From Oligoflexales bacterium (GTDB lineage Bacteria > Myxococcota_A > UBA9042 > DTJE01), in the NCBI GenBank assembly GCA_012840965.1, contig DUVQ01000030.1:1-49984 (forward strand): a stretch of DNA of 49,984 nt, given 5' to 3'. The position numbers and the translations under genes are program-made. The notes below the pieces were generated by a model. The model worked only from the letters and a program-made list of their open reading frames with translations. It did not search any database and was not told the origin of the DNA. Shown here one piece after another: positions 2,517-43,339 of the stretch; position 1 is the stretch's first letter, and each line of letters opens with the position of its first letter.

Positions 2517-4157
2517 TTAGGCCCGCTTGCGAAGGGCAACCAAAAGCAGACCAGCAAACAACACAAAGAACATGGGGGCAGGCTTACTTCCAGCGTTACA
2601 ACCGCCATCCAGTTCATCGATTATAGGCTCCAGATCGCTTACTTCGCTTCCGTTATCAGCAGTCGAATCAACCTCAGCATAGGCGTCATTTTCATCAAGC
2701 TCATTATCGATGACGTCGTCTTGCGTCACATCTTCTGAGATGACTTCTTCGCTTGGCTCTTCATCTGGTACATCCGGTACATCTGGTAAGCATTCGCCCA
2801 TCTGTAAGGCGCACTTTTCTTTGGCACAGTCGGACAAGACTCCAGCTTGATCCGGAATCAGCTGACAATTGTTACTGAGGCACTCAACCATTGAGGCGCG
2901 TCTAGCTTGGACCTCATCATTTGCCATCAGCAAGCAGCTCTCTTCACAAAAATCATCCGCATCGACACAGCGATTTAAGCACACATTCAAGGCGTTACAA
3001 TCAAATGTCGGTTCTCCATTGGCGGTGCACTTGTCCATCTTGTCGCTGCATTTTTCATATATGCACGTGGTTCTATCTGCTTTTCCCTCAGGACATCTAC
3101 CATCTATGCAGTACCAGACCGTTCCCAAAAGGGAATTGGCCCCAGGTAAAGACAGCAACTGACAATCGTTTGCGCAAGCATTGTCTCCAGCTTCGCACAA
3201 AGCGATGCAAGACAGCCCCTCAAGGCAGCTCATAGTCTTGCACTTGGAGTTATCACAGGTGCCATCGACTCGACATGCCTGCTCACAGTAGCACTGGCCT
3301 GTCCCTTCACAAGAGGGAAACTGGATGCCGGTAACTTCCGTAATCCACCAAGCAAACGCATCAACCCTCATGTAGTATCCAGTTCCATTTTCGCATGGGT
3401 CTACGCTGTAGCCACCTGTGCTTGTTCCAGCGGAAACAACACCAGCGAGGCTATATCCACCCTGCCCATCGGCCAGAAATCCTGGTCCTCCACTATCACC
3501 AAAGCAGGTTCCTCCATCCCTATTCTCAGCCAGATAGGTGAAATCAGTTATGAATGACACAGGTCGGGTGATAGTCCGTTTTATCCCACTTCCTGTTGAC
3601 CTTCTACCATCATCGACACCAAAACCAACGTACTTGATGGGAGCCTGGACATCGTACTGTGTAAGTGATCGCAGGTTCAAAGGCATCGGATCGACGTCAG
3701 TAACGGGAGTGGCTAGTTTTACCAGCGCAACATCATCCCTTCCAACCAATCCCTTTGGTTCGTACTGTGGAAAGGGGAAAAACTCCTCGATTTTAACATC
3801 CCGTCCTTCGGCAGGGGGCTGGTGGCGCCCCGTTTCTTGGGCGTTATTGCCGATAAAGAATCGTATAAAGTCAGGATTAAAAAACAGGGCTTCAGGTTGA
3901 TCAGGTGGTGGCTTAACGCAATGGCCAGCGGTCAACACCCATTCCGGCGCAATCAAAGTTCCAGTACAAATGCTTCCGTGATAAAAGTCGTCAGTCATGA
4001 TAACAAGCGCACCTACCGCTGGAAAACCAGTTTCTAGCTCTCCATTTACGATAGCGCTGCTAATGTGCGCAACATCAGGCTGATATTCAACATAGCTTTC
4101 AGGCCAACAGGCCACAAAACCAGCAAGAAGCGCAACTAGAGCAAAGATGTTTCGCAT
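2517..4157 (-). CDS. Secreted trypsin-fold serine protease with lipobox and MYXO-CTERM-like tail
   Basis: A 546-residue exported protein. Residues 1-17 form a signal sequence ending in a lipobox-like GFVAC. The chymotrypsin-fold domain runs from an activation-type IVNGE (residue 36) to ~290, with the triad His79 (LTAGHC), Asp142 (DVAL) and Ser222 (GDSGGP). The S1-pocket position six before the Ser is Gly, not Asp, arguing against Arg/Lys cleavage. Residues ~300-470 carry many Cys in C-x3-C-type spacing, then an Asp/Glu-rich linker, then GGCNAGSKP, a ~17-residue hydrophobic helix and RKRA, as in MYXO-CTERM sorting tails. The start at 4157 has GAGGG upstream; the open frame extends to 4346 but that part lacks coding character. 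Known: MYXO-CTERM tails are processed at Cys by a rhombosortase-like or myxosortase system. Its substrate is unknown. Confidence 0.9.
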   Translation of the reverse strand: MRNIFALVALLAGFVACWPESYVEYQPDVAHISSAIVNGELETGFPAVGALVIMTDDFYHGSICTGTLIAPEWVLTAGHCVKPPPDQPEALFFNPDFIRFFIGNNAQETGRHQPPAEGRDVKIEEFFPFPQYEPKGLVGRDDVALVKLATPVTDVDPMPLNLRSLTQYDVQAPIKYVGFGVDDGRRSTGSGIKRTITRPVSFITDFTYLAENRDGGTCFGDSGGPGFLADGQGGYSLAGVVSAGTSTGGYSVDPCENGTGYYMRVDAFAWWITEVTGIQFPSCEGTGQCYCEQACRVDGTCDNSKCKTMSCLEGLSCIALCEAGDNACANDCQLLSLPGANSLLGTVWYCIDGRCPEGKADRTTCIYEKCSDKMDKCTANGEPTFDCNALNVCLNRCVDADDFCEESCLLMANDEVQARRASMVECLSNNCQLIPDQAGVLSDCAKEKCALQMGECLPDVPDVPDEEPSEEVISEDVTQDDVIDNELDENDAYAEVDSTADNGSEVSDLEPIIDELDGGCNAGSKPAPMFFVLFAGLLLVALRKRA

Positions 4158-4267
4158 GACGCCCTCGAAAGCCACAAGACACCACAACAACGCGGCCAGA
4201 TCTTTTAATGTTTTCCCTCCCTCTCTGTCAAGCCCAGAACCCAAAAATCCACCAACCAATTGACATC

Positions 4268-4312
4268 CAATGTGTAACCTGCCCCTGTCCCCGCCCCTGC
4301 CCCCGCCCCCAA
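4268..4312. repeat. C-rich hexamer-like repeat upstream of rseP
   Basis: A run built from CCCCTG, TCCCCG and CCCCCG units (G-rich on the minus strand) in the 242-base divergent gap between the protease and rseP genes. It is the same sequence family as the long array at 16021-16125. Confidence 0.6.
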
Positions 4313-4340
4313 ATTTCACACCAAAATTCCGCCCCAACCG

Positions 4341-4369
4341 TTGCACTAAACGCTTACAGTGGTTACATT
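4341..4369 (+). promoter_or_regulatory. Candidate sigma70-type promoter for rseP-tsaB
   Basis: TTGCAC (4341-4346), a 17-base spacer and TACATT (4364-4369) lie 31 bases before the chosen rseP start. The match is partial (three and four of six bases), so this is a weak prediction supported mainly by spacing and position. Confidence 0.3.
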
Positions 4370-6741: not shown

Positions 6742-6827
6742 AATAGTTTTCAGACTTTTTCGTCTGTGTCTAGGTTTGCCCAATTGCAATTACTTTGGTG
6801 GGCGGGTACCAAATCAGGAGGTGCCGT

Positions 6828-9080
6828 ATGGATACAAAGCTTAAAACGCTGCTTTTTACTTCAGTTCTGTTGTTTGGTTTCTTCATCATCAAACCCGCGG
6901 TTGCTCAGTCAGTCAGGATCATCGCAATTGACGGTCAGCTAGACGCGACTGGGCAAACACGCGAAATTTTGGTGCAACCTGGCCAAACGGTCTCTTTAGT
7001 TGCAGACGAAGTCTGGTATGACGCATCAGGCTCGATGGAATATGCCTATCGAGAAGTCAGCGATTTCATTTGGACTTCCAACGTAGCGCCTGGAGATCGC
7101 TGTGATGCTTCCACCCAATGCGGGTCCGTTTCAAATTTTGAAACCACTGAATACGGGGTTAACTTCTATGTCCCCTGGAACCTCCCATCTAGGGTTGTCA
7201 TTTCAGTCAGAGCCCGCTGGAGCAGTGATACCGACTCAATCGTCTTGATTAATGAACGGATTTCAAACAGGGTGACCCATTACAGTGACTTAGATGGACT
7301 TGGTCGTTGGGTGGTTATCTCTGGTGACCGCGTATTCGTTCCATATGGCGTCGCCACTGACTGGTCTCCTTATTCCCGTGGTTATTGGTATTGGACCTCC
7401 TATGGATGGACCTGGTATTCCTATGATCCTTGGGGCTATATGACCGACCACTTTGGTCACTGGCGCCACAGTCGCCTGTATGGTTGGGTCTGGATACCTG
7501 ATCCCCTTTGGGTCTGGCGTCCGGCCGTTGTTTCATTTTATTACGGTCCTTCGTGGATTGGTTGGTATCCCTATGACCCGGGATGGACTTGGGGGTACAG
7601 AAAAGGCTATGCCCACGGTTACAACGACGGATATTGGGATGGATACCGCGCTGGTCGTAGAGACAGCAGAGACTATCGTCGTGGTCGTGTGATGGTTGGT
7701 TATGACGACTTTTATCGTGATGGTAGACGTGGTCCGCCGCCACGAGGTGACAGGAGTGACAGACGTCGCAATCAACCAAGATCGCACGATATCTCTGAGG
7801 TGAGGGTACGCGATACCGCCTTGATCGACAGGGAGTTTAACGCTGCCCACACGAGAGGCGATGTCAGCCAGATTCCAGGTGGCTCAAAGGATGTGCTCAG
7901 CAGTCGGAACTTTATCGCTCAGCGTGGTGGGCACGATATTAGGGAAGTTAAACTGGATAGAGTGTCTGTAAGTGGCACCAATGCTGCGAGAATGCAGCCA
8001 AAGAAGGCTCTTTTTGATACGCCCAAATCCTATGTTGATGCTAGGGCAACGACTATCAGACAGGTCAAGAGCAACCAAATGAAGGTGACTGCTCCAGTTG
8101 GTCGATCAGTTGGTGCTAGCAAGGCCGTCGCTCCTGCTCCGGTTCGTCTTGATACAACGTCTCGCGCCGCGGCAACATGGCAGCCAAAATCTATGGGGGG
8201 AGCTGTAAATCCTGGTGTGGTGCGTCCTAGCGCTTCAAGTGTTGGTGGTACTCAGGGCGTCAGCAGGGATTCAATGGGCACCACAATTCAAAGAGTCAAT
8301 CCTTCTGTGACCAGGCCTGCGCCGACCACAGTCAGTCCTTCTGTGACTAGGCCCGTGCCGACCACAACCAGAACCATGCCGAATGTTGGTGTCCGGCCAA
8401 GCGATGTCAGGACTCCCAAAGTTGATAGGGTGGCTCCTACACTGGAAAGAAGGCCTGTGACGCCGTCCCAGTCTCAGCAATCTACGACAAGCACTCCCAG
8501 CCAGGATGTGCTTAAGCAGCGTAGGATGCAGCAAAATACTGATAGGCTGCGACGCAACGTGCCAGCCGCTCCAAAAACGACCCCTGACCCCAGGCAGCCG
8601 TCCAGTTCCTATCAAGCACCTAACCGGGCTTATGGTTCCGTGACCTCTTCAAGCGCTGCTTCTGGGTCGCGTTCCAGCTACGCTGCTCCGTCCAGGTCTA
8701 GCGCCCCTTCACGGGCCGTGACCTCTTCGAGCCCTGCTTCTGGGTCGCGTTCCAGTTATGCTGCTCCGTCCAGGTCTGCCGCCCCTTCACGGGCTGTGAC
8801 CTCTTCAAGCGCTGCTTCTGGGTCGCGTTCCAGCTATGCTGCTCCGTCTAGGTCTAGCGCCAGGAGCATTACCTCTTCCAATTCTGGCTATAGTTCGCGC
8901 TCCAGCTATGCCGCTCCATCCAGCTCCAGCAGCTCTTCAAGCAGTAGTTCGTCTTCAATCAGCAAACCTTCGTCTCGCTCAAGCTCTGTGTCTTCTGGTC
9001 GATCCTCTGGATTTAGCCGTGGTGGCTCGTTTGGCTCCAGCCGTGGCGGTTCCTCTGGAATTGGTGCCCGGAGTCGTTAA
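6828..9080 (+). CDS. Exported Trp/Tyr-rich protein (DUF6600-like) with Ser-rich repeat tail
   Basis: A 750-residue protein of unknown function. A signal peptide (residues 1-26, cut after PAVA) is followed by a beta-rich domain (~30-150), then a dense Trp/Tyr/Gly segment (~150-275, e.g. WVVISGDRVFVPYGVATDWSP and repeated G-x-W), which matches the look of DUF6600 proteins. Next comes an Arg/Asp-rich stretch with R-R-G-R repeats, a long Pro/Ser/Thr/Arg-rich region likely disordered, three 26-residue tandem repeats, and a Ser/Gly/Arg tail. ATG 6828 is used because AGGAGG precedes it by 6 bases; an upstream in-frame ATG at 6795 has no such site. The basic, low-complexity C-terminus suggests a cell-envelope or matrix role, which is inference only. 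Confidence 0.85.
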   Translation: MDTKLKTLLFTSVLLFGFFIIKPAVAQSVRIIAIDGQLDATGQTREILVQPGQTVSLVADEVWYDASGSMEYAYREVSDFIWTSNVAPGDRCDASTQCGSVSNFETTEYGVNFYVPWNLPSRVVISVRARWSSDTDSIVLINERISNRVTHYSDLDGLGRWVVISGDRVFVPYGVATDWSPYSRGYWYWTSYGWTWYSYDPWGYMTDHFGHWRHSRLYGWVWIPDPLWVWRPAVVSFYYGPSWIGWYPYDPGWTWGYRKGYAHGYNDGYWDGYRAGRRDSRDYRRGRVMVGYDDFYRDGRRGPPPRGDRSDRRRNQPRSHDISEVRVRDTALIDREFNAAHTRGDVSQIPGGSKDVLSSRNFIAQRGGHDIREVKLDRVSVSGTNAARMQPKKALFDTPKSYVDARATTIRQVKSNQMKVTAPVGRSVGASKAVAPAPVRLDTTSRAAATWQPKSMGGAVNPGVVRPSASSVGGTQGVSRDSMGTTIQRVNPSVTRPAPTTVSPSVTRPVPTTTRTMPNVGVRPSDVRTPKVDRVAPTLERRPVTPSQSQQSTTSTPSQDVLKQRRMQQNTDRLRRNVPAAPKTTPDPRQPSSSYQAPNRAYGSVTSSSAASGSRSSYAAPSRSSAPSRAVTSSSPASGSRSSYAAPSRSAAPSRAVTSSSAASGSRSSYAAPSRSSARSITSSNSGYSSRSSYAAPSSSSSSSSSSSSSISKPSSRSSSVSSGRSSGFSRGGSFGSSRGGSSGIGARSR
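8640..8873 (+). repeat. Three tandem 78-bp repeats inside the Ser-rich tail
   Basis: Units begin at 8640, 8718 and 8796 and encode VTSSS-x-ASGSRSSYAAPSR followed by a Ser/Ala/Pro stretch (26 residues each). The first two are nearly identical in bases, implying recent duplication; the third decays at its end. They run into a poly-Ser tract at about 8925-8960. Confidence 0.9.
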
Positions 9081-9179
9081 CTCACAACTCAACTAGGACT
9101 GGATTAGATTCGTTTTGGGCTGGATAAGATGCCCTTGGTCCTTTACAATCCGCACTGTGTGTCTTGTGTGGAGATTTTG

Positions 9180-11717
9180 ATGGCTCGCACTTATATGCTG
9201 ATTCTGCTAGCTTTGGTTTTTGTTGCTTGTACTGGTGAGAATCTACCCACTGATACCGGCGGTAATCGTGATTTTGGTAATATAGATATTGAAACGCCGG
9301 ACATAGCTGATGATTATGAAGCCCCAGATGTTGTAGTTGCTCATGACCGTGGGTATGTGCCTCCGGTGTCAGCGGATGGCCCGGCCGCAGACCTGCTAGT
9401 CAGGATAACTGGGCCTGGTGCTAGGGGGCAGGCCTCTACCACGGGTGGTATGGTTGCACTGACTGGTGTTGTTTTTGGGCCAGTCGAGTCTATGAAGTGG
9501 ACCTTGGAAGACGGTAGTTCAGGTGTAGTTACATTTTCCAATGATTCTTCTTATTGGCTTTCTGCTCCAGTTTTGCTTAAGCAGGGTGATAACCGCATCA
9601 CCGTTCATGCAACTGGAAAAGCGCGCGATGGTAAAACTGAGATTACCGTTTCTGATGTGATCGTTGTAACCCAGACCCCAAGCTTGTCGCTTGCGAGCCA
9701 GCCCAAGATAACCCCTCCAGCATTTTTTGTGGGTCAAAGTGGGGAGGCATATGCGACCATGGCTTCTGGCCATTTTGGTGGGTTTAGCTCTGCCACCCTT
9801 TCGCTGTGGGAAGTGGACGCCCAAGGTAACGGCTCGGATGCTCGTGGGTTCATGCTGGATGACGGCCTAGTCGAGACTTCTGGCGACGAAATTCAGGGAG
9901 ACGGGGTGTTTACCGTAAAACTGAATATGGCTTGCACCGAGCCTGGAAAGAAATATTTCAGAGTGGCTGCGCAAAGGGAGGGGGGCCCACTAGTCAAATC
10001 AACTTTGGTTACTTTCGAGTGCTTACCTCGTATTACCCAGACGGCGTGTTCTAACCATCAAAGAACTTTGGGGGATGCCAGGATTGCTTATGATACCACC
10101 TACAGTGACCTCAGAGACATGGGAGCAGCGCGTGTTGCGGCGATAAACGTGCTTTCAAGAGACCCGGCTGTAAAGGAAGTTGGCGATGCTGAAGAGACTG
10201 GCGGGCTGTGGGTGCGCTTTGATGATGGGGTGGTTGGTGCCTTAAACCTGACAGAGGAGGGCTACAGGGGGTCTGGGGCTGCTGATGGGACTGGTGGGCT
10301 TGCAACTGTTTCTTCACCGGTGCTGAATGTACAACCGATTAATTCGAAAGATATTTTGCTTTTGTCGCCATTTGTATCTGATTTTGCTCCAAATGACGAA
10401 ACCATGCTGATCTCTAATGTGGCAAACAATGTCAAGTGTCCATCGTTCAATGTTCATGGCCCATTAAACTCGTCTGCCGCAAATCTGAGCGCCTTTCGCA
10501 GGCTAGGTAGCTATGGAATTGTAGCGATCGCAACGCATGGAGATGTCTATTTTGAGACCTTGTCTGCAAAGGCAAAGCAAGAAATGAACTGGAGGCATCC
10601 AGGTGCCCAGGAAATCATATGGTCTGGAGAACCTGTGAATTGCTCGTTACTTGCCCAAGCAACCAAGTCTTGTAAAGGCCTAGCAGATTGCGATTACGGT
10701 TCAGAATGTATTATTACGACGCCTTTTGTAGAGAATGTCACTGAAGCCTCTGGTGTATGCCTTGACCGCACACACGCTGACTTGGCGGCTGGGCGTGTGG
10801 TAATGGGTGATCGTACGTACGGTGTTACCCCTGAATTTATTGGTTATTACTCCGAAAACAATCGCTTCCCAGATAGCCTGATTTATCTTGGGGCATGTCG
10901 CACGCTTTATAACGGGACGTTGGCTGCCGAGTTTTTTGGGGCTGGTGCTAAGGCTGTTGTAGGCTACACAAACTGGGTTTCAAACCTGTTTGCCTTCAAA
11001 TATGGCAGCCAGTTCTTCAGTCGGATGATTGAACAGCGGATGACTAGTGGCGAAGCTTACGGGGTGGGCGCTCAGGACACATCTAACGTCGGCTCGTTTT
11101 TTAGGCTCTTTGGAGCTAGAAACCTGGATATATCAGATTATGAACTGCTCAATGTTGGTTTTGAGGCTGGTGAGCTTTCCGCCTGGAACAGGGTGGGTGA
11201 TGGGCGTGTGATTACCGGTCTTGGGGAAACGAAGCCCATAAATGGAAAATTTATGGGGATTATCTCCACCGGCTTGGGTTTTACAAAGGACATGGGCAAC
11301 ATAACCCAGAAGTTCTGTATCCCGCCAAACGCTAAAACGCTGTCTTTTTATTGGAAATTTTACTCTGAGGAGTTTTTGGAATTTTGTGGAACTCAGTTCC
11401 AAGATAGTTTTATCGCGACTTTGACCGATTCAACAGGTAAGGTGCATCCCCTGGTGGACCTGAAAATTGATGATTTTTGTCCCGAAAAGGAAGGTTGTGA
11501 CAGCAGTCGGTGTAAGGGGCTGTACCCCCTCAGCAAAGCAGACGTTTCCTTTGATAAGGGTGATGTTCACATGACGCAGTGGCAGCGCACCACCTTTGAT
11601 TTGCTTCCAATCCTTGGTGGTGAGCCCACAAACGCGATTTTAAAATTCCACTGTAAAGACACAGGTGACTCGATCTACGATACAGCTGTTCTTATCGACA
11701 CTATCAAAATTGAATAA
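9180..11717 (+). CDS. Lipoprotein with caspase-fold (clan CD-like) domain and C-terminal beta-sandwich
   Basis: An 845-residue protein starting MARTYMLILL with lipobox LVFVAC, then an Asp-rich spacer. Residues ~60-280 look like beta-sandwich (Ig-like) domains. The middle carries a caspase-type layout: a strand then ATHGD (His453), an insert with several Cys, then LIYLGACRT (Cys573), then an AKAVVGYTNWVS strand, as in CHAT, gingipain and C11-like cysteine peptidases. The C-terminal ~190 residues (from FEAGELSAWNRVG, with YWKFYSEEFLEF) resemble a 'choice-of-anchor' jelly-roll domain. ATG 9180 is chosen because GGAG lies upstream and it starts a clean lipoprotein signal; the ATG at 9129 would put a Cys-containing leader before it. 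It likely sits in the outer membrane or on the surface. Whether it is an active protease is unknown. Confidence 0.82.
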   Translation: MARTYMLILLALVFVACTGENLPTDTGGNRDFGNIDIETPDIADDYEAPDVVVAHDRGYVPPVSADGPAADLLVRITGPGARGQASTTGGMVALTGVVFGPVESMKWTLEDGSSGVVTFSNDSSYWLSAPVLLKQGDNRITVHATGKARDGKTEITVSDVIVVTQTPSLSLASQPKITPPAFFVGQSGEAYATMASGHFGGFSSATLSLWEVDAQGNGSDARGFMLDDGLVETSGDEIQGDGVFTVKLNMACTEPGKKYFRVAAQREGGPLVKSTLVTFECLPRITQTACSNHQRTLGDARIAYDTTYSDLRDMGAARVAAINVLSRDPAVKEVGDAEETGGLWVRFDDGVVGALNLTEEGYRGSGAADGTGGLATVSSPVLNVQPINSKDILLLSPFVSDFAPNDETMLISNVANNVKCPSFNVHGPLNSSAANLSAFRRLGSYGIVAIATHGDVYFETLSAKAKQEMNWRHPGAQEIIWSGEPVNCSLLAQATKSCKGLADCDYGSECIITTPFVENVTEASGVCLDRTHADLAAGRVVMGDRTYGVTPEFIGYYSENNRFPDSLIYLGACRTLYNGTLAAEFFGAGAKAVVGYTNWVSNLFAFKYGSQFFSRMIEQRMTSGEAYGVGAQDTSNVGSFFRLFGARNLDISDYELLNVGFEAGELSAWNRVGDGRVITGLGETKPINGKFMGIISTGLGFTKDMGNITQKFCIPPNAKTLSFYWKFYSEEFLEFCGTQFQDSFIATLTDSTGKVHPLVDLKIDDFCPEKEGCDSSRCKGLYPLSKADVSFDKGDVHMTQWQRTTFDLLPILGGEPTNAILKFHCKDTGDSIYDTAVLIDTIKIE

Positions 11718-11738: not shown

Positions 11739-14700
11739 TTAGCGTAGGTAACCCTGTGCGACGGTGAATCCGCCTTCTCGGTACAGGTTTGTAAACACAA
11801 TGTCCAGTTCTGTTTCTTTGGGGATTTCATTGGCCAGTGATGACAGGTCAACTTTTGGTATCGCAAAGGAAAACAGCTCCTTACCTGCAAGGTCCTTTAA
11901 AAGGGTGGAGATTAAGTCGCCCTCAAGTAGCTCGATCAAGTCCTCTTTTGAGACGGGGAAGTCTTCATTAACAGTCAAAAGTTCGATGTCCAGAAGTGGG
12001 GTTCCATCTATTGACAACGCGACTTCTGGCCCTTCCTCTCCTTCAACCAAGGTCAAATTGGCATCCACCTCAGCCTGAAGGAACAAGGTCAGTTCCAAGT
12101 TATTGCCCAAGAAGATCATAGTCCCCTCGGCGAATAAATCCCCAATTTGTAGGCGCACCTTACCTTCAGCACCACAGTCGGTCAACATAGGTGGCAACAG
12201 GAAGTTAAGCTTGACATCAAGGTCCCGTACCGGAACTTTCGACATGTCAACACCGGCCAGAGTTTCCTCGTTGAGGGTGAAATTAAGGGTCCCAGTCCAC
12301 CAAAGGGCAAATAGTGCCTGGTTTAAGATGTCATCGTGGGCAGCAAGGCCAATGTCGCGATTACGTGGCATCTCGAAGAATTGCGGTTTTGGATTCAGGC
12401 AATTAGCACGTGCAATCGAACCTAGCGGGTTTCGATTAACCCCTTTCTTGGAATAAATAGTGCCGCCCATATCTAACCAAATTCCTTCAGGCTGTACATC
12501 AAGCATGCCGGGCTTGGTATACAGACTTAGGGCGGTTGGTGGACTGCTTAAAATGGCCGGGATTTCAAATGTTTCGTGAATCTCAAATTTTCCAAGTAGA
12601 TCAGTTAGCGTCTTGTCGATAAGGTCAACTATCTGCTGTTCGATAGCCTCTTCGATAGTTTTGGTAAAGGTCTTTACCAAAATATCAATCAGCCATCCCA
12701 GCAAGTCACCCAAAATTCCGTCTATATCAACCTTTAGGCCATAGAGATTGACCTTAACTTCTTGGCTTTTGGCGTGGATTTTGCCGTTTTCATCCATCCA
12801 AATCAGCACGTCGGTAACTGCGTAGATGTTGCTGCTTGAAACCCAACCTGAAACGTCTGGGCACCAGTCGATTATGAAGTTACATTCTCCAATTGCGGAG
12901 ACCTTGACCTTGAAATTGGGGATCGCTATTCGGACCACCATGCCCCCTTCATTTAGCCACATGTTGACCGTGGGCTTGCCATAACTCAGGTTTGAAAGCT
13001 CGACCCTGTAGGGGCCAGACTCGGCAACCGGGTTGGGTAGCAGCGCTCCAATATCCAGGGAAGTCAGCAGCAATTCGATGATAGTTGCAACATCATTGGG
13101 TGGCAGCGAATGGTCTTGGTCGTCGATCAAATTGCGCCCAAGAAATGCGCGCACCCCCTCTTTAACAATTCCTAAGGCTGGGTTATTTTTATGGTTTTCA
13201 TAGTAGTCAGACGAGAAGTAGATCCCTACTCTTGCCTCGGTCTTTAAACCGGCGTTGTTTTCAACTTCCATGCGCACAATGTTGAGGCCCTGGCTTAACG
13301 GACCAAGGGTTACAGTTACCGGAACGTTTGTTCTTCCAGGGGGAAGGCCGTGCCAGCTTTCAGGTGAGGTGTCAAAGCCGATGGCCCACTTCAGCGATTT
13401 TATGCCTGTTTCGTCGTCAGCGATGATGTATGAGACGGTAACTGTAGGTTTGTCTGACTTGAGGGTCGCGCCACGCTCTGGGTACAGGATTGAAAGCAGT
13501 GGACCGCTGCCTTCAACTATGACTTCTAGCACGTTGTATACCGTTGGGAATTGCGCAAGCCTGAAGGTAAGGTGGTACACCCCTTCTTCTTGCATCAGGA
13601 ACATTCCCGTTGGGTCTGTATCGACTGGGACGATACCGCCTGTGTTGGGGGATATATCGACTGGGGAAAGCTCCAAATCTGGAATCATGTTTCCATACTG
13701 GTCAAGGGCGTGGGCATCAACCCTTAAGACCTCGTTTGTTCCGTAGAAAGGTTTTTTGGGGCTTGGTTCCAACACCAACGTCTTTGGAGGCCCTGGGTTA
13801 ACTATTAGATTCGCGGGAATCAACTGGAAATATGACCAGTCAATGGCCGAAGGGATGCACTTGATTGGATAAACACCAGCCGCAGTGGTGGTGATGTTCA
13901 TCCCATTCATGGTCAATACTGGTGAGAGAGGGGCTACGCTAACGGGACAATCTTTGAGTGGAACTGGATTGTCATAAAAATCCAGAGGTTCACAGCTTAG
14001 GGTCGTTTTCCCACCTGCTTCAATCTCAGCCGGGCTTAAACGAGTCAGGATCTTTTTTGCCATCCCTGGACTGACTGTGACTTTTTCAGGTGTGCGATCA
14101 ACCACATCTGTGTCTGTAAGGGCGCAGGCTATGTCATAACTGCCAACAACAGTCAGTTGAACAGACAGCCCTGAAGGATGGACTCCTTGGGATGGGACAA
14201 CATAAGGGTGCATTCCAGATGAAAAAACGTTTCCATACCTGTCGACGGCGGTACAGATAACGGTGACGCGCTCACCTGCTGTTATTTCTTTTGGATCGAC
14301 TTCAGTTTCAATGGATACCGCGTTGGCCGGGGAAACGATGATTCTGGCAGGGGTGTCGTCAAGCATCATGGACTCGGCTGAATAGCAGGCCACCAGGAAT
14401 CTGTCTGTTTTGGTGAATTCTACGGTGAATTTGCCTTGCTTTTGGCTCTTGATCGCTACCCCTTCAGGAAGGGCTGGATCTGGCAATTCGCCTTCTGGCT
14501 GTGGGTCATCTTGAGGCCTGATTATCAACTGGACGGTGTTGGGATTGAACCCATTTCCGACGCACTGAACTTCGACTTCTCCACCTGCTTTAATGGCCGT
14601 GGTTGACACCACAGTGTCTATGCCAGGAGGGGTTACTGGGACGTCCTCTTCCTGGACATCAGTGTCCTGGTCGCCGTGGGTGTTTCCTCCCCCACACGCG

Positions 14701-14756
14701 GCAAGCACCAAAAGGATTGGGAGGACAAAAAAGCTCAAACGCTTATATAAAGGCAT
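11739..14756 (-). CDS. Large lipoprotein: Ig-like repeats plus TULIP/BPI-like lipid-binding region
   Basis: A 1005-residue lipoprotein: signal with lipobox LVLAAC, then GGGN and an Asp/Glu-rich linker. Residues ~50-400 contain about four ~90-residue beta-sandwich units, each opening with an I-x-A-G-x-x-x-x-V-x-C pattern and carrying paired Cys. The C-terminal ~450 residues alternate long amphipathic strands with helices (LGDLLGWLIDILVKTFTKTI) and contain AHDDILNQALFALWW, which resembles the second half of BPI/LBP-type TULIP tubular lipid-binding proteins. That assignment is by pattern only. ATG 14756 has GGAGG 8 bases upstream; a frame extending to 14855 lacks a signal sequence at its front. 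It converges on the caspase-like gene with 21 bases between stops. Confidence 0.85.
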   Translation of the reverse strand: MPLYKRLSFFVLPILLVLAACGGGNTHGDQDTDVQEEDVPVTPPGIDTVVSTTAIKAGGEVEVQCVGNGFNPNTVQLIIRPQDDPQPEGELPDPALPEGVAIKSQKQGKFTVEFTKTDRFLVACYSAESMMLDDTPARIIVSPANAVSIETEVDPKEITAGERVTVICTAVDRYGNVFSSGMHPYVVPSQGVHPSGLSVQLTVVGSYDIACALTDTDVVDRTPEKVTVSPGMAKKILTRLSPAEIEAGGKTTLSCEPLDFYDNPVPLKDCPVSVAPLSPVLTMNGMNITTTAAGVYPIKCIPSAIDWSYFQLIPANLIVNPGPPKTLVLEPSPKKPFYGTNEVLRVDAHALDQYGNMIPDLELSPVDISPNTGGIVPVDTDPTGMFLMQEEGVYHLTFRLAQFPTVYNVLEVIVEGSGPLLSILYPERGATLKSDKPTVTVSYIIADDETGIKSLKWAIGFDTSPESWHGLPPGRTNVPVTVTLGPLSQGLNIVRMEVENNAGLKTEARVGIYFSSDYYENHKNNPALGIVKEGVRAFLGRNLIDDQDHSLPPNDVATIIELLLTSLDIGALLPNPVAESGPYRVELSNLSYGKPTVNMWLNEGGMVVRIAIPNFKVKVSAIGECNFIIDWCPDVSGWVSSSNIYAVTDVLIWMDENGKIHAKSQEVKVNLYGLKVDIDGILGDLLGWLIDILVKTFTKTIEEAIEQQIVDLIDKTLTDLLGKFEIHETFEIPAILSSPPTALSLYTKPGMLDVQPEGIWLDMGGTIYSKKGVNRNPLGSIARANCLNPKPQFFEMPRNRDIGLAAHDDILNQALFALWWTGTLNFTLNEETLAGVDMSKVPVRDLDVKLNFLLPPMLTDCGAEGKVRLQIGDLFAEGTMIFLGNNLELTLFLQAEVDANLTLVEGEEGPEVALSIDGTPLLDIELLTVNEDFPVSKEDLIELLEGDLISTLLKDLAGKELFSFAIPKVDLSSLANEIPKETELDIVFTNLYREGGFTVAQGYLR

Positions 14757-14865
14757 TTGTAATACCTCCATGAAGCCATCTAACAACTTCAAACTTGCGA
14801 GCCAATGCTTTGGCAAGTAGAATTCTACGGGCCTGAATCTATTGACGCAAGCCATTACAGCAGTT

Positions 14866-41583: not shown

Positions 41584-43125
41584 TTAATTGCAGGCGCCTG
41601 GGGTGTGGGGCAGGTTTCCAAAGCACTTTTCTGGGAAGCAGGCTGTTGGATAGCTGATGTTGTCTTCTGCACAGACTTGGCCAGGTGGATCCCAGGCATT
41701 TGGAGCTGCCAACGTGCCACAGATGGTGGAACAGTTGGAACATAGCCCCTTAAAGGATTCCGTTGCACCAAAGAACTCCATGAAGCAGGTGTTTTGGTAA
41801 GTCTTACCATCGGTGCCACAGACAGGATCAAGGGTGCGAGGGCAGTGTTCTGCAATGCCTTCGCAAACTCCGTTGTGAAGCACGCCGCCAGCCCTACAGT
41901 TCGCTTCGCATGAGTTCAGATAGTCTCTTCCATCGATGCCGCAAACAGGACTACTGGTGGTAGGACAAAGCTCTTCACCATAAGCGATTGGATAACAATC
42001 ATTTCGATAAAGATTTCCTGACACCGTACAAACTTCGTTTTCTGGCTGGGCGTCACATCTGGGCAGGCAGTAACCGGGATGCTTCACAACTGTTCGTCTG
42101 CCATCTGTTCCACACCTAGTGGCCGCACATTCATTGGCGTAAGTAATGTTATCAAGACCGCAGACCGGTGCACAGACGTCGTCACAAACGTTACAGGTAT
42201 CGGAGATACAGGCTCCGTGGCAGTAAAAACCAACTTCTCCATCTCCTTCAAAGCATTGGTCGGCGGCCCTTTGTTCGCAGTCATTCCAATAGGTTACGCC
42301 ATTGTCACCGCAGACGGGGTCGTAGGTTCGATTCTTACAAAGTTGGGGGCACTGGCGGATTTGACGGCACGGTCCAAAAAGGGTCAGGTTTTTAGCAATG
42401 TAGTCATCGTCGCAGCCAGTGGCAGTCTTCAATGCACACATGCTTTCATAAGTTGCCTGAACACCGTCTACGATTCCACAGACTTCGCCACATTCACCGT
42501 AAATGTTCTCACATTCCAGATGGTTTCTGCAGTCTTGGCACTCAGCACATTTGCCACGACGAAGGATAAAGTCAGAAGTTTGCACACACTGAAGGGTGCC
42601 GCTGCAGGTTGGGCAGGTGGCATCTGGTGCACAGATTGCACACTTTGCACAGACATCGCCTGGATAGTCGACCCTGTCGGTTCCACAGACCCACCACTGT
42701 TGGTCTGGCGTACAAGGGCACTTGATCGTTGATGGGTCACCGTCATCAGTTTCAGGGGTAACATCGGTGTCGTCCCCGATTTCCCCATCATCATCAGCTA
42801 CCTCGGTATCCCCTGGGTCGCCAGGATCACCAGGATCACCAGGATCACCAGGGTCTCCTGGATCACCAAGATCCCCAGTGTCCTTGTCACCATCATCTTG
42901 GCTTGTGTCAGGCCTGACCACGTCGGCGTCTTCATCATCCACTTCGACAGTGTCCAAGTCGTCCGTTGGCTTGACATCATTCGTGTCCTGCACGCCGTCT
43001 CTAGGGTCGATGGTGTCCTCTTCATTGTTCCAGCCAAAGTCTTTTTGGGTAGTACCTCCACCACCACAAGCAACCATAGCCAGCAAGGCAAAACCCACAG
43101 CGAAGGAAGTTAATCTGCGGCTCAT
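41584..43125 (-). CDS. Multi-Kazal-domain lipoprotein with (Gly-Asp-Pro) linker
   Basis: A 513-residue lipoprotein: signal with lipobox LAMVAC, GGGG, an Asp-rich linker and seven or so Gly-Asp-Pro triplets, then ~350 Cys-rich residues. At least five follow the Kazal/follistatin pattern C-x-x-x-x-x-P-V-C-G-x-(D/N)-G-x-T-Y-x-N-x-C: YDPVCGDNGVTYWNDC, APVCGLDNITYANEC, SPVCGIDGRDYLNSC, LDPVCGTDGKTYQNTC and a degenerate last one (VCAEDNISYPTAC). Kazal domains inhibit serine proteases in eukaryotes and occur in some bacterial exoproteins. AAGGAGG is 5 bases before the ATG at 43125. A serine protease gene is present at 2.5-4.2 kb, though nothing ties the two. Surface localisation is inferred. Confidence 0.88.
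   Translation of the reverse strand: MSRRLTSFAVGFALLAMVACGGGGTTQKDFGWNNEEDTIDPRDGVQDTNDVKPTDDLDTVEVDDEDADVVRPDTSQDDGDKDTGDLGDPGDPGDPGDPGDPGDPGDTEVADDDGEIGDDTDVTPETDDGDPSTIKCPCTPDQQWWVCGTDRVDYPGDVCAKCAICAPDATCPTCSGTLQCVQTSDFILRRGKCAECQDCRNHLECENIYGECGEVCGIVDGVQATYESMCALKTATGCDDDYIAKNLTLFGPCRQIRQCPQLCKNRTYDPVCGDNGVTYWNDCEQRAADQCFEGDGEVGFYCHGACISDTCNVCDDVCAPVCGLDNITYANECAATRCGTDGRRTVVKHPGYCLPRCDAQPENEVCTVSGNLYRNDCYPIAYGEELCPTTSSPVCGIDGRDYLNSCEANCRAGGVLHNGVCEGIAEHCPRTLDPVCGTDGKTYQNTCFMEFFGATESFKGLCSNCSTICGTLAAPNAWDPPGQVCAEDNISYPTACFPEKCFGNLPHTPGACN
42806..42876 (-). repeat. 9-bp tandem repeat encoding Gly-Asp-Pro
   Basis: On the minus strand the unit GGTGATCCT (with GGCGACCCA- and GGAGACCCT-type variants) is repeated about seven times and encodes the G-D-P spacer between the lipoprotein linker and the Cys-rich part. 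Such repeats can change copy number by slippage. Confidence 0.85.
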
Positions 43126-43339
43126 ATAAGCCTCCTTAAAGCTACCAACGTTAGACTGCCACCCCTGATGGAGACGGGCGGCCTCAAGTACAACTAGCCA
43201 CCAGCCTAGGGCCAACAGTCCCTTAGTTTACGTCATTTGGGATGAAACAGGTAACATATTAAACGTATAAATGATATCTAAGTTTGAGTTTCTGAATCTA
43301 AGCCGCAGAAGTTGAAGCTTTTTCCAGTAAATTTAGGGG
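43126..43339. other. 214-base upstream region of the Kazal lipoprotein
   Basis: Non-coding by eye. The half next to 43340 is AT-rich (for example TATTAAACGTATAAATGATATC at about 43258-43280), where a minus-strand promoter is plausible, but no consensus pair with proper spacing could be fixed. Confidence 0.4.

Follow-up and report, generated by a model that had tools for sequence, protein, structure and literature searches.

A predicted caspase-fold lipoprotein with a CHAT-like catalytic core, widespread in an uncultured class of Myxococcota

The window, that is the whole stretch of 49,984 nucleotides of contig DUVQ01000030.1 (Oligoflexales bacterium) that was analysed, contains an open reading frame at 9129-11717 on the forward strand. 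The best start of this frame is the ATG at 9180; an in-frame ATG upstream of it, at 9129, would lengthen the protein by 17 amino acids and leaves the reading unaffected. Differences from the nearest homologue at codon positions 1, 2 and 3 are 0.30, 0.21 and 0.70 respectively, and the gene is therefore under purifying selection. Promoter and terminator scans for the gene gave results at chance level, PADLOC returned no match for the protein and none was obtained by tblastn against plasmids. Directly upstream, at 6795-9080 on the forward strand, lies a gene for a DUF6600 protein with a long serine-rich repetitive tail. On the other side is a gene for a lipoprotein with weak LBP/BPI/CETP similarity, referred to here as BPI-like, which is convergent and thus is not co-transcribed with the gene under study. 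The pair is conserved in nine loci within the genus and the family, and no BPI-like neighbour was found within 4 kb of the caspase-fold gene outside the family. Beyond this convergent gene no conserved operon partner was found, nor was any conserved linked sigma factor, receptor or candidate substrate. The window also contains a trypsin-like protease gene at 2517-4346 and, at 41584-43215 on the reverse strand, a gene for a protein with several Kazal-type serine protease inhibitor domains.

The product carries the signal peptide and the lipobox cysteine of a bacterial lipoprotein, and the lipid anchor claimed by the first-pass annotation, which was made from the letters of the window, therefore agrees with the present data. 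A script detected a lipobox in 45 of the 54 relatives, and in several others one can be seen by eye. The Ig-like and choice-of-anchor-like domains, which had been described as flanking the catalytic part, were also recovered in the AlphaFold2 strands (Table 1). NF041940, the model for the second beta-sandwich, matches 7 of 51 members at E<=0.1 (best 1.8e-4), and the helical hairpin and beta-meander module that follows it is kept even in paralogues that have lost the catalytic dyad. The sole NCBIfam match in the protein is its C-terminal choice-of-anchor L domain (NF038133, choice_anch_L), a marginal pass at 27.5 bits against a cut-off of 27 with 35 residues matched; the same model matches 50 of 51 members at E<=0.1, and such a domain is also found on other proteins of the class, most of them with a lipobox. 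The cysteine-rich insert gave weak Dickkopf_N, Lustrin_cystein and Myxo_Cys_RPT matches in some members. In Pfam nothing in the full protein rises above the cut-offs, CHAT included, and neither the protein nor alignments A1 and A2 had a meaningful match in sequence searches of the PDB.

Table 1. Features of the caspase-fold lipoprotein gene and its convergent neighbour (positions in the window; residues numbered from the start at 9180)
Feature	Position	Strand	Basis or remark
Caspase-fold lipoprotein gene	9180..11717	+	845 aa from ATG 9180
Lipoprotein signal peptide, MARTYMLILLALVFVA-C, predicted lipidated Cys17	9180..9230	+	Sequence; lipobox ...LVFVAC
Acidic disordered linker	9231..9392	+	pLDDT 30-36 over mature residues 1-50
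First Ig-like beta-sandwich	9393..9677	+	AlphaFold2 strands; full-model Foldseek matches to Ig-like folds
Second beta-sandwich, choice-of-anchor-X-like	9690..10025	+	AlphaFold2 model; NF041940 in some members
Helical hairpin and beta-meander module (GLWVRFDDGVVGAL)	10038..10262	+	AlphaFold2 model
Arg363-Gly364, possible self-cleavage site bordering a disordered linker	10266..10271	+	Conservation; putative function
Predicted caspase-fold (clan CD, CHAT-like) catalytic domain, residues 382-650	10323..11129	+	AlphaFold2, Foldseek, hhalign, sub-threshold Pfam CHAT
His453, catalytic dyad	10536..10538	+	Invariant in 51
Cys-rich insert between His and Cys (C488, C498, C504, C510, C527)	10641..10760	+	
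Cys573, dyad nucleophile	10896..10898	+	Invariant in 51
C-terminal choice-of-anchor-L-like jelly roll	11151..11714	+	NF038133
Convergent neighbour lipoprotein, weak LBP/BPI/CETP similarity	11739..14855	-	Pfam LBP_BPI_CETP 21.8 bits, cut-off 28.8

The first-pass annotation had proposed a caspase fold from three motifs, and all of them were located in the frame as claimed: ATHGD, which contains His453, starts at residue 451, LIYLGACRT, which contains Cys573, at 567 and AKAVVGYTNW at 590. AlphaFold2 was run on the mature protein with 51 sequences and gave a model with pLDDT 86.6 and pTM 0.87. Because Ig-like folds swamp the Foldseek results of this full-length model, the catalytic domain was also folded separately (pLDDT 93.1, pTM 0.88). 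As assigned with DSSP, strands and helices are predicted to succeed one another as in the caspase fold, and the models contain the alpha/beta sheet of clan CD. In them His453 and Cys573 lie just behind the ends of two successive core strands, in that order. Judged by these models, the catalytic domain almost certainly has a caspase fold. In a Foldseek search of the PDB with this domain DdvA came first (PDB 8rw5, 8rot; E 4.3e-4, TMq 0.34), and SAVED-CHAT (2.2e-3), Csx29/TPR-CHAT (7e-3 to 2e-2), separase (0.18) and caspase-9 (0.19) were also matched; no gingipain was present among the 50 PDB matches listed. The TM-scores of the leading matches are modest, about 0.34-0.46, and the E-values marginal, therefore the fold class is supported and the family is divergent. 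The viral database BFVD gave weak Foldseek matches only, one of them a Yasminevirus caspase-domain protein. DdvA is known as the transmembrane anti-sigma factor of Myxococcus xanthus which is the partner of DdvS (PMC4374960), and DdvS in turn controls an antiphage island (PMC12288465). Like the protein studied here DdvA is myxobacterial, but it is a membrane-spanning anti-sigma factor and no lipoprotein, and its structure is known here by PDB title alone.

Comparison with CHAT, gingipain and C11, as proposed in the earlier reading, was carried to the level of profiles, with CHAT and C25 alignments built from genomes of the same Myxococcota class. In hhalign each half of the domain aligns with its CHAT counterpart, the His and the Cys falling opposite those of CHAT (P 0.006 and 0.008), and when the insert columns are left out a single collinear alignment is obtained with the same pairing of His and Cys (P=8e-4). 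Control comparisons of CHAT with the Ig-like and anchor domains of this protein gave P 0.13-0.43. In a loose Pfam scan of the catalytic domain CHAT is the only peptidase model to appear, in 10 of 51 members with a best E of 3.5e-4; the domain encoded in the window scores 14.1 bits (E=0.033), below the gathering cut-off of 24 bits. No match was obtained with the Pfam models of C14/metacaspase and C11 even at E<=10 across the 51 members. The label CHAT-like is used here because the dyad corresponds to the CHAT dyad in the profile alignment. By its sequence profile the catalytic core is CHAT-like and not gingipain- or C11-like, and membership of CHAT in the Pfam sense is not reached. The earlier view that the family could not be named also stands: no peptidase model reaches its cut-off, CHAT being the nearest, and no named peptidase family, as far as these models indicate, covers the catalytic domain. 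A C25 (gingipain) origin was tested and received no support, as hhalign against the C25 alignment gave nothing (P 0.15-0.28) and Pfam C25 (PF01364) had no match.

The CHAT proteases (PF12770), such as Csx29/TPR-CHAT of Craspase and SAVED-CHAT, have the caspase fold in common with the present protein and are the nearest enzymes by structure. Both also have a His motif resembling ATHG, and in both an L-x-AC motif precedes a helix and a GAxAVxG strand. In contrast to CHAT, the present protein is an exported lipoprotein with a five-cysteine insert between His and Cys and with Ig-like and jelly-roll flanks, and it is without a TPR or SAVED partner domain; a TPR or cytoplasmic partner is typical of CHAT and not strictly required. 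Gingipain-type C25 peptidases are clan CD enzymes of the envelope or are secreted, and they too use a His/Cys dyad. They have no Pfam or profile link to the caspase-fold lipoprotein, whose own genome holds a separate true C25 (gingipain-type) peptidase above the Pfam cut-off (G000:C97:5896-7011, L110). Metacaspases and orthocaspases (C14) and C11 peptidases combine the clan CD fold with the dyad, and in metacaspases and C11 an Asp stands two residues before the Cys. In the caspase-fold lipoprotein family this residue is mostly Gly and not Asp, and Arg/Lys specificity is therefore unsupported from that side.

Close homologues carry the dyad proposed earlier, and neither of the two outcomes that the first-pass annotation had named as refuting it, a predicted fold without the caspase sheet or a dyad missing from close homologues, was observed. 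His453 is conserved in 29/29 and Cys573 in 30/30 of the homologues collected first, and both are invariant in the 51-row alignment of relatives, as expected of the conserved His/Cys dyad of clan CD. A wider alignment contains 70 rows that keep both residues, at least one contig being counted twice among them, and 4 non-redundant rows that lose both, with no mixed row. The dyad is also kept by paralogues near 30% identity, and the pattern in these alignments indicates conservation that is more than chance. The paralogues L144, L145 and L148 keep the dyad and have no cysteine insert, which makes the insert, unlike the dyad, dispensable. The dyad-less paralogues all belong to one family (L044 frame +1 from codon 1777, also seen as L133; L071 frame +1 from codon 1781, also seen as L134; L138; L143), where His is replaced by Q, G or R and Cys by S, R or P. 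They form one clade with support 1.0, thus the joint loss of His and Cys was effectively one event. In three genomes an intact paralogue has the dyad-less gene immediately behind it, in the same orientation. The dyad-less paralogues retain most of the remaining conserved positions of the catalytic domain, which suggests a folded, non-catalytic partner; it is possible that the tandem genes are active/inactive pairs.

Arg363 lies shortly ahead of the catalytic domain, where it borders a linker modelled with low confidence. A basic residue occupies this position in 69/69 dyad-bearing rows covering it (67 R, 2 K); the 4 dyad-less rows have A or E. The conserved basic residue fits self-cleavage after a basic residue, and is suggestive only. 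Its loss in the dyad-less rows is by itself not strong evidence, because 15 of 110 conserved positions have been lost in all four rows. Self-cleavage at Arg363 is thus put forward tentatively, as a process that could occur and about which we are doubtful.

The family is widespread in one uncultured class of Myxococcota, in which nearly all relatives are found. A neighbourhood search gave homologues in 49 of 53 related genomes, often two or more in each. When 284 genomes of the phylum were searched, 49 matched: 48 of the 52 that belong to this class, counting the genome under study, and a single genome from elsewhere, with the weaker match L148 (G255:C280). L148 keeps the His and Cys, is missing the cysteine insert and is matched by neither Pfam nor NCBIfam models. 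Scanning named genome contigs gave 54 loci, nearly all of them in MAGs labelled Myxococcota, Myxococcales, Deltaproteobacteria or Proteobacteria. Two contigs titled Klebsiella pneumoniae (L049) and Anaeromyxobacter dehalogenans (L038) also carry the family, and these MAG labels are probably wrong.

The likely product of the gene, in our view, is a cysteine peptidase of clan CD that is exported and lipid-anchored and whose catalytic core is closest to the CHAT proteases; the conserved dyad in a modelled caspase fold makes it likely that this peptidase is active. The protein would be lipidated and carried to the outer membrane, and disulfides in the cysteine-rich insert would suit it to oxidising conditions in the envelope. 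With His453 as activator, Cys573 would then cut peptide bonds of a nearby protein, while the beta-sandwich and jelly-roll domains would hold the enzyme at the surface and present the substrate. More speculatively, the enzyme might start as a zymogen, with a self-cut at Arg363-Gly364 that frees or arms the catalytic domain. What is known of CHAT and related caspase-fold proteases comes mostly from immune and cell-death systems of the cytoplasm. A family of exported lipoproteins that runs through a whole class and combines a CHAT-like core with an invariant dyad and a natural dyad-less branch would extend CHAT-type proteases to the bacterial envelope. Cys573, His453 and Arg363 are clear testable residues in a protein whose catalytic domain is named by no library searched. 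The full form of such a system at the outer membrane, in which the core has moved out of the cytoplasm and acquired a disulfide-rich insert, cuts itself after Arg/Lys363 and in one family has a dyad-less regulatory partner, is an unlikely combination in our estimate.

What the peptidase would cut can be read in more than one way. It could be a regulated signalling protease that, on a trigger and like Craspase in the cytoplasm, cuts one dedicated envelope partner and thereby frees or activates a signal. The nearest relatives by fold are regulated proteases and an anti-sigma factor, the tandem intact and dyad-less genes in three genomes of one family are reminiscent of active/inactive pairs, and the BPI-like lipoprotein is a conserved neighbour. 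However, the BPI-like gene is convergent and confined, within 4 kb, to the family, the tandem dyad-less partner is limited to one family, and no conserved linked sigma factor, receptor or candidate substrate came to light; this role is possible, and we hold it with little confidence. A degradative enzyme of the surface, digesting prey or surrounding proteins in the manner of gingipains, would suit an envelope lipoprotein with Ig-like and jelly-roll domains that often occurs as two or more paralogues per genome and has other proteases near by, such as the trypsin-like one. Yet the family is kept across nearly the whole class with constant architecture, which is unexpected for variable digestive enzymes, and the genomes encode separate true C25 members to which it has no sequence-profile link, so that a digestive role seems rather unlikely.

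Hydrolysis might also not be involved at all. Clan CD includes ligases and transamidases, and the fold could be a catalytically silent or transpeptidase-like scaffold that binds proteins or joins them to the surface. The persistence of dyad-less members with most conserved positions intact indicates that the fold is useful without catalysis. A pure scaffold would not need the dyad, but the dyad is invariant in the 51 relatives and is retained by paralogues near 30% identity, and this makes a scaffold function very improbable.
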